The notes beneath the pieces are model-generated. The model saw only the letters and a program-made list of their open reading frames with translations, searched no databases and was not told the origin of the DNA. DNA of 64,000 bases, from the NCBI GenBank assembly GCA_003279455.1, contig QCHU01000004.1, positions 1 to 64,000 on the forward strand. The letters run 5' to 3'. This document shows, piece by piece, positions 28,994 to 31,633 of this stretch (its first letter is position 1; each line of letters begins with the position of its first letter). The DNA is from Prochlorococcus sp. AG-402-G19. GTDB lineage: Bacteria; Cyanobacteriota; Cyanobacteriia; PCC-6307; Cyanobiaceae. The position numbers and the translations under genes were made by a program.

Positions 28994-30100
28994 GTGGCAT
29001 TTTCTAAAAAATTAAAGCAACTATTCTTTTCTGGCCAGAAAAAAAACAATTGGAATGGGCTAATAAACGCTTATAAACCTTGGCTACCAGTTACAAATAA
29101 AACTCCCATCATTTCTTTGAATGAAGGCGGAACACCTCTAATAGAAGTAAATTCAATAGCTAATCGAATTGGAAAAGGAGTAAAAGTTTATGTGAAATAT
29201 GACGGTCTCAATCCAACAGGATCCTTCAAAGATAGAGGAATGACTATGGCAATAAGTAAAGCAAAAGAAGATGGTTGTGAAGCAGTAATCTGCGCAAGCA
29301 CAGGCAACACCTCTGCATCTGCAGCTGCCTATGCGAGCAAAGGAGGAATAAAGTCTTTTGTGATTATTCCAGACGGATATGTAGCTCAAGGAAAATTAGC
29401 TCAGGCATTAGTATATGGAGCAGAAATATTAGCCATTAAAGGAAATTTTGATAAAGCATTAGATATTGTCAGGGAATTGTCTGAAAAATATCCAATAACA
29501 TTAGTTAATTCTGTAAATCCCTATAGATTACAGGGACAAAAGACTGCCGCTTTTGAAATAATAGAAAATCTTGGAAATGCGCCTGATTGGTTATGCATTC
29601 CAATGGGGAATGCAGGGAATATAAGTGCTTACTGGATGGGGTTTCAAGAATTTTTTAATGCTAATAAATCCAAAAAGCTTCCACGAATGATGGGCTTTCA
29701 AGCAAGCGGTTCTGCCCCTTTAGTCGAAGGGAGAAGTATTAGCAATCCAGAAACAATTGCCACTGCAATAAGAATTGGAAATCCTGTTAATAAAGAAAAG
29801 GCATTAAAAGCAAAAGAATCAAGCAATGGTAAATTTTCATCCGTTACAGATTCAGAAATAATTGAAGCTTATAAAATTCTTGGAAAAGAAGAGGGAATTT
29901 TTTGTGAACCAGCTAGCGCAGCTTCTGTCGCAGGTCTATTAAAAGTAAAAAATGATGTTCCAATGAATTCAACTATTGTTTGTGTTTTAACAGGCAATGG
30001 TCTAAAAGATCCTGATTGTGCCATTAAAAATAATGATGCAATCTTTCACACTGGTGTAGAAGCTGAAATAAGTTCAATAACTAAAAAAATGGGCTTTTAA
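28994..30100 (+). CDS. thrC: Threonine synthase
   Basis: PLP-dependent conversion of O-phosphohomoserine to threonine. [14 protein letters not shown] near residue 75 holds the PLP lysine; [15 protein letters not shown] and the C-terminal [10 protein letters not shown] match the short (about 350-residue) threonine synthase class. The start is GTG 28994. It is the last gene on the left side of the putative origin and reads toward it. Confidence 0.96.
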
Positions 30101-30156
30101 AGATATAGTAAATATCCAGATAAAAAACTGTCTGTTAATTTCGTCTTATTTTTCTT

Positions 30157-30279
30157 TTTTTTACTGTGGAAAAGAAAAAACAATATCTTCATTTTTTGTC
30201 TTTTTTTTCCACAATCATTTCTAAAGGTGGATAACTATGCTTTTATCCACTTTTAAGATATCTTTTCCACAGTAAAAAA
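30157..30279. repeat. Perfect 19-bp inverted repeat bracketing the DnaA-box cluster
   Basis: The left arm 30157-30175 reads TTTTTTACTGTGGAAAAGA and the right arm 30261-30279 is its exact reverse complement, with 85 bp between. Each arm contains a TTTTCCACA-type DnaA box in opposite orientation, and the other three boxes lie between the arms. The spacing is too wide for a simple terminator; it more likely positions DnaA protomers symmetrically. Confidence 0.8.
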
Positions 30280-30303
30280 TTGAGAGATGTCAGTTAAGAT
30301 CTT

Positions 30304-30332
30304 GGTTTTTTGAAAAAACCACAAAAACCACA
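30304..30332. repeat. Short inverted repeat and tandem AAAACCACA 9-mers in the origin region
   Basis: GGTTTTTT (30304-30311) pairs with AAAAAACC (30313-30320) around a single G. Overlapping this, AAAACCACA occurs twice head-to-tail at 30315-30323 and 30324-30332. The 9-mers share CCACA with the DnaA boxes but have AAAA in place of TTTT. Their role is unknown. Confidence 0.5.
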
Positions 30333-30472
30333 AGACCTACTACTACTAATTCATTTTCATATCAAGAATAAAGAAATATAATAGAAGAAGAAATTTTTGT
30401 TTTTTTTAACGGTATTGCTTTTTTTAAATAGCTATGAAATTCTTATATCAATGGATTTTTTGAAATAACGGA

Positions 30473-31633
30473 ATGAAGTTAAGTTGTTCACAATCAGATT
30501 TGAATACAGCTCTTCAGTTAGTTAGTAGAGCTGTTTCAAATCGACCGACACATCCAGTTTTAGCAAATGTTTTGTTGGCAGCTGATGAAGTGACAGGAAA
30601 ACTACGCTTGACTGGGTTTGATTTAAGTTTAGGAATACAAACTTCAATATCAGCTTCCATAGATGAAAGTGGTGCTATTACTTTACCAGCTAAATTATTT
30701 GGAGAAATTATTTCTAAGTTGTCTAATGATTCACCATTAGTTTTAACTTCTGATGAAGTTAGTCAACAAGTTGAATTCACCAGTAAAAGTGGTACATATC
30801 AAGTAAGAGGACTGCTTTCTGATGATTTTCCTGAGTTACCTTTAGTGGAAAGTGGAACTTCACTTAAATTAAATCCTCTATTACTATCTAATGCAATCAA
30901 ATCTACATTATTTGCAAGTAGTACAGACGACGCTAAACAATTACTAACAGGTGTTAATCTTACTTTTGATGGGTTTGGTATTGAATCTGCAGCTACAGAT
31001 GGTCATCGATTAGCTGTATTAAATTTAAAGAATATTTTATCTCAAACAAATGATATAAATAATTCTTCTGAATTTGAAAAATTTTCTATTACATTACCTT
31101 CTAAATCTTTAAGAGAAATTGAAAAGTTTTTAAGTGCTTGTGATACTAGTCAACCTATTAATTTATTCATTGATAAAGGACAAGTTGTTTTTATATCTTT
31201 TGATGAAATTATAACTATTAGAGCTTTAGAAGGTTCTTATCCAAATTATTCTCAATTATTACCTGATACTTTTTCTAATATATTGGAATTTGATAGGAAA
31301 GAATTTATTGCTTCTTTAGAAAGAATAGCTGTTTTAGCTGATCAACACAATAATGTTATTAAAATAGCTACTGATAGCTCTGCAAAAATAATTAAAATTA
31401 GTACAGATGCTCAAGATATAGGAACTGGTTTTGAGTCTCTTTCAGTCTCTTTTAAAGGTGAATCATTTCAAATTGCTTTTAATGTAAGGTATTTATTAGA
31501 TGGACTTAAAGTTATAGATTCAAATCTTATTAGGCTTAGTTGTAATGGACCTACAACCCCAGCTGTTTTTTCACCTATTAATAGTGATGTTAATTTTATT
31601 TATTTAGTTATGCCAATTCAAATACGAAATTAA
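30473..31633 (+). CDS. dnaN: DNA polymerase III beta subunit (sliding clamp)
   Basis: Ring-shaped processivity clamp. The 386 residues begin MKLSCSQSDLNTALQLVSRAVSNRP and contain LTGFDLSLGI, ATDGHRLAVL near 180 and the C-terminal VMPIQIRN that matches the YLVMPM-type end of beta clamps. It is the first gene to the right of the putative origin and is transcribed away from it. A hypothetical PRC-barrel gene begins 2 bases after its stop, then purL and purF, suggesting one unit. Confidence 0.97.
   Translation: MKLSCSQSDLNTALQLVSRAVSNRPTHPVLANVLLAADEVTGKLRLTGFDLSLGIQTSISASIDESGAITLPAKLFGEIISKLSNDSPLVLTSDEVSQQVEFTSKSGTYQVRGLLSDDFPELPLVESGTSLKLNPLLLSNAIKSTLFASSTDDAKQLLTGVNLTFDGFGIESAATDGHRLAVLNLKNILSQTNDINNSSEFEKFSITLPSKSLREIEKFLSACDTSQPINLFIDKGQVVFISFDEIITIRALEGSYPNYSQLLPDTFSNILEFDRKEFIASLERIAVLADQHNNVIKIATDSSAKIIKISTDAQDIGTGFESLSVSFKGESFQIAFNVRYLLDGLKVIDSNLIRLSCNGPTTPAVFSPINSDVNFIYLVMPIQIRN

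Follow-up and report, generated by a model that had tools for sequence, protein, structure and literature searches.

The DNA analysed here, a window of 64 kb in all, lies on contig C4 of a 1.28-Mb draft genome that comprises 45 contigs and is 66.7% complete; the genomes of congeners span 1.6-2.0 Mb. The local gene order is thrC-dnaN-purL-purF-gyrA, and the first two genes are separated by a gap of 372 bp (30101-30472) with a GC content of 24.7%, compared with 33.6% for the window (table 1). Base composition, this gene order and the size of the congener genomes suggest a Prochlorococcus-like picocyanobacterium. An earlier note, made from the letters alone, had described this gap as a replication origin lying next to dnaN without dnaA. 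That description holds for the window, where no dnaA is present, while for the genome as a whole it is bounded by the draft state of the assembly, in which a profile search yielded a single Bac_DnaA match, on contig C6. The gene is intact, with one 466-aa ORF carrying the DnaA_N, Bac_DnaA (ATPase) and Bac_DnaA_C (helix-turn-helix) domains, and from this three-domain ORF the DnaA of the draft genome is predicted to be functional. A box about 1.2 kb to the left of dnaA (C6:25889) falls within the adjacent ORF.

Table 1. Coordinates of features in the thrC-dnaN region (positions in the window) and at the second box array (locus L134, contig C28).
Feature	Position	Strand	Remarks
thrC (threonine synthase), left neighbour	28994..30100	+	TIGR00260, 332.8 bits; stop ends at 30100
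DnaA box 1, TTTTCCACA	30165..30173	-	exact in 21/27 congeners
DnaA box 2, TTTTCCACA	30205..30213	+	exact in 26/27 congeners
DnaA box 3 (weak), TTATCCACC	30226..30234	-	at most 2 mismatches in 26/26 congeners aligned there
DnaA box 4 (weak), TTATCCACT	30243..30251	+	at most 2 mismatches in 25/27 congeners
DnaA box 5, TTTTCCACA	30263..30271	+	exact in 20/27 congeners; at most 1 mismatch in 27/27
Degenerate platform box, AAAACCACA	30315..30323	+	CCACA core in 28/29 congeners
Second degenerate platform box, AAAACCACA, abutting the first	30324..30332	+	CCACA core in 29/29 congeners
DnaA-trio: bottom strand 3'-(GAT)4, top strand (CTA)4	30337..30348	-	box-spacer-trio layout
Stretch of high AT content, the least stable of the gap	30340..30410		probable site of first opening
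Strongly conserved block just upstream of dnaN	30401..30448	+	97% identity in 29 congeners
dnaN (DNA polymerase III beta subunit)	30473..31633	+	TIGR00663, 323.1 bits; ATG at 30473
DUF2811 gene	L134:486-749 (C28)	-	Pfam
Second array: TTTTCCCCA, TTTTCCACA, inverted TTTTCCACA	L134:941-1027 (C28)		upstream of DUF2811
DUF1818 gene	L134:1054-1434 (C28)	-	Pfam

A DnaA-box cluster beside dnaN

The five DnaA-box-like 9-mers that the earlier note had listed beside dnaN were all located, as were the T-rich tracts downstream of them. With up to one mismatch allowed, the five sites fall within 107 bp of the non-coding gap. When 64-kb windows were shuffled 60 times, no 112-bp segment held more than three sites, and none of 2000 shuffled gaps held five. 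The total of exact TTWTCCACA matches in the whole window, also five, is unremarkable, since at least five were found in 3 of 100 shuffles. To assess conservation, the dnaN upstream regions of 29 members of the genus, the draft itself among them, were aligned; 27 of these have the full gap. Across these 27, mean identity was 92% within the boxes versus 62% between them, and the positions of the boxes are fixed.

The dominant box, TTTTCCACA, had been taken for a one-base departure from the consensus, a view that has to be abandoned, as the literature gives this sequence as the standard cyanobacterial box. Cyanobacterial origins usually adjoin dnaN and carry TTTTCCACA boxes (PMC4674748, PMC6323995), and the placement of dnaA elsewhere is likewise the usual arrangement (PMC4674748, PMC6323995, PMC3480399). 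The experimentally confirmed oriC of S. elongatus PCC 7942, for example, lies between dnaN and another gene, with dnaA elsewhere at 1.1 Mb (PMC3480399). Since both a dnaA placed elsewhere and the TTTTCCACA boxes are the norm, the probable dnaN-side origin described here is of an already known type. It shares with that of S. elongatus the intergenic position beside dnaN, the TTTTCCACA boxes and a dnaA located elsewhere (PMC3480399), but has five boxes plus two degenerate ones and thrC on its left, where S. elongatus has 11 boxes and a different left neighbour. The oriC of the circular chromosome of Cyanothece ATCC 51142 also lies upstream of dnaN with TTTTCCACA boxes and an AT-rich stretch, and binding of DnaA to it was shown in vitro; the available sections of the source describe three boxes and mention no trio (PMC4674748), whereas five boxes and a trio module are found here. 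A dnaN-side origin is not universal in the phylum: no box (up to one mismatch) was present in the 900 bp upstream of dnaN at loci L226, L227, L232, L233, L236-L238, L240 and L242, all from other families.

Platform boxes, a DnaA-trio and an AT-rich stretch

About 43 bp to the right of box 5 lies a box-spacer-trio module (30315-30348) that was absent from the earlier list of features, consisting of two abutting 9-mers, a 4-bp spacer and CTACTACTACTA. The last of these occurs at 30337-30348 and nowhere else in the draft genome. The trio is perfect in 22 of the 29 congeners and near-perfect in the remaining seven, and the 9+9+4 spacing that precedes it shows zero indels in the genus alignment; at least three tandem trio repeats arose in just 19 of 20,000 shuffled gaps. 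The platform boxes are more variable. The one at 30315-30323 reads TTAACCACA or TTACCCACA in many congeners, while the inner one (30324-30332) differs from TTWTCCACA at three positions in 28 of the 29 genomes of the genus. Other genera have the same layout with boxes closer to the consensus, for example TTTTCCACC GTTTCCACA AAAC CTACTACTACTA. There, 17 of the 37 sampled loci have the trio, which is absent or degenerate mostly in GC-rich genomes, and among other cyanobacterial families 5 of 20 dnaN loci have the layout of the module. The platform boxes of this genus have moved away from the consensus; their simplest reading is a low affinity that would be retained by selection. The 60 bp from 30340 rank at the 97.7th percentile of instability within the window. 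We consider the module a likely candidate for the DNA-opening element of the origin.

The arrangement resembles the basal unwinding system (BUS) of B. subtilis and H. pylori, with which it shares tandem boxes, a short spacer and 3'-GAT-5' repeats that occupy a single strand in the same orientation (PMC8287927). It differs in that both trio-side boxes are degenerate within the genus, each with three mismatches to TTATCCACA in the draft genome. The rule for a BUS asks for at least three DnaA-trios (3'-NAN-5', mostly GAT), here represented by (GAT)4 at 30337-30348, and for a DnaA box no more than 16 bp from the trio, with at most two mismatches for the better of the pair. The boxes of the draft genome lie 4 and 13 bp from the trio, and each exceeds this mismatch limit when compared with TTATCCACA; 25 of the 29 congeners fall within the rule when scored against TTWTCCACA. 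Because of these three mismatches per box, we describe the module as one that would work like a BUS and not as a rule-compliant member. The deviation of both trio-side boxes from the consensus also counts against reading the gap as an origin.

A route to initiation can be proposed, with the order of binding, the direction of the filament and the site of opening all borrowed from the B. subtilis and H. pylori system (PMC8287927). DnaA, encoded elsewhere, would bind the five-box array (30165-30271), composed of TTTTCCACA and weaker boxes, and would next occupy the two abutting degenerate boxes (30315-30332). From this platform a DnaA filament would grow rightward on the bottom strand, across the (GAT)4 trio, so that the AT-rich DNA to the right of the trio would open, the helicase would be loaded there and bidirectional replication would begin. 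Between the trio and dnaN, the block at 30401-30448 is better kept than most of the origin, and inspection by eye across the 29 congeners revealed no conserved reading frame in it. It is probably the promoter or leader of dnaN, or else part of the origin.

Strand asymmetry and the siting of the origin

On several occasions cyanobacteria have dispensed with DnaA for initiation, and replication independent of DnaA is documented in some of them (PMC7198777). The boxes might merely place the dnaN promoter under DnaA-responsive control, with initiation elsewhere or, as reported for Synechocystis PCC 6803, at multiple sites without DnaA. The block at 30401-30448, conserved at 97% and possibly the promoter of dnaN, fits such an arrangement, as does the presence of DnaA-independent initiation in the phylum (PMC7198777). 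A promoter, however, has no need of a trio and two abutting boxes, and strand asymmetry also speaks against this reading. Within the window, GC skew turns from negative to positive around dnaN. The genome itself being an incomplete draft, skew was sampled in 20 segments, each 20 kb long, along the chromosomes of two complete congeners. In both, mean GC skew was negative to the left and positive to the right of dnaN and AT skew was the opposite (Mann-Whitney, GC p about 0.01 in both; AT p = 0.0003 and 0.002), and, on a grid with 25-kb steps, the switch was best placed no more than 8 kb from dnaN. By this sampling, the gap thus sits at the chromosomal switch of GC and AT skew in the two congeners. 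The orientation of coding sequences showed no switch at dnaN, which weighs against an origin there. Species that initiate without DnaA lack such a skew switch; the present genomes are of small size, and a V-shaped skew accompanies dependence on DnaA and oriC. We therefore regard control of the dnaN promoter alone as very improbable. Coverage in natural Prochlorococcus ecotypes is bilinear about one origin, whose coordinate is not given in the sections available of PMC9589681.

We predict with high confidence that the thrC-dnaN gap is the chromosomal oriC, because the boxes are fixed in the genus, a trio adjoins them, skew switches at dnaN in congeners, DnaA is intact and the literature offers precedents. 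The same evidence bears out the earlier identification of the gap as the chromosomal origin.

A second DnaA-box array upstream of DUF2811

A genome-wide listing of TTTTCCACA yielded one other tight recurrent cluster, situated between the DUF1818 and DUF2811 genes on contig C28. In it, TTTTCCACA is followed after 35 bp by an inverted TTTTCCACA, with identical offsets in 24 of 24 congeners. The exact pair at 34-36 bp occurs once per genome in 73 of 200 family genomes, compared with none for the reversed control pattern, and two distant genomes with the pair again have it ahead of a DUF2811-like ORF. A set of 32 DUF2811 loci from across the phylum had 66 exact boxes upstream versus two downstream. 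In named cyanobacteria, the array was present at 78 of 78 DUF2811 loci (the best matches to one profile, many of them from close relatives), with 152 exact boxes upstream versus none downstream. The boxes are mostly spaced by 22, 21 or 11 bp, approximately two or one helical turns. Of 107 arrays, 31 have an inverted box 44-45 bp past the last direct one, the same spacing as in picocyanobacteria. The left-hand neighbours of the array vary among the species inspected, so its conservation does not stem from shared synteny. The genomes listed above whose dnaN upstream regions are free of boxes have kept the array. DUF2811 matches scored above the family cut-off in 49 sampled genomes, and none was found in G272, G324 and G333 (one family, f13) or in G268. 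The protein itself is small and resembles a ribbon-helix-helix by eye; its AlphaFold model (mean pLDDT 57) is too low in confidence for a fold search.

The array is real and conserved, and apparently undescribed: no description of it, nor any mention of DUF2811, was found in the parts of the literature searched, which included papers on cyanobacterial TTTTCCACA, an absence that applies to those texts and not to the literature overall. The inverted TTTTCCACA pair was also considered as an RNA stem and rejected, as changes in single arms are uncompensated and there was no Rfam match. Elsewhere, another inverted TTTTCCACA pair, with some 203 bp between its members, lies downstream of a LexA-like gene (L135:952-1162, contig C24); it has the same spacing in the complete congeners G002-G006 and no Rfam match.

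DnaA likely binds the DUF2811 array, which may act as a DnaA-controlled promoter, a titration or reactivation site, or an auxiliary initiation site. It could even be imagined as the main origin, with the dnaN-side cluster secondary, given its retention in genomes that lack boxes up to 900 bp from dnaN. But in complete congeners it lies 384-398 kb from dnaN, where the sampled skew switches, and no trio abuts its boxes in the draft genome; we rate the chance of this as close to negligible. With the origin placed in the thrC-dnaN gap, a tentative and somewhat doubtful extension is that initiation there is coupled to the phylum-wide array, whose phased boxes would bind DnaA and either control DUF2811 or adjust the level or nucleotide state of DnaA, in the manner of datA or DARS. 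Any role of the array in the timing of replication is speculative.

These results place the predicted origin of a picocyanobacterium at base resolution in a draft genome, together with its probable opening element, a placement that can be used for growth-rate estimates from origin/terminus ratios and for tests of the DnaA-trio in cyanobacteria. The DUF2811 array outweighs the origin in importance: if it binds DnaA, cyanobacteria would own a conserved DnaA locus outside the origin, and this would offer a way into the tuning of DnaA activity in the phylum.
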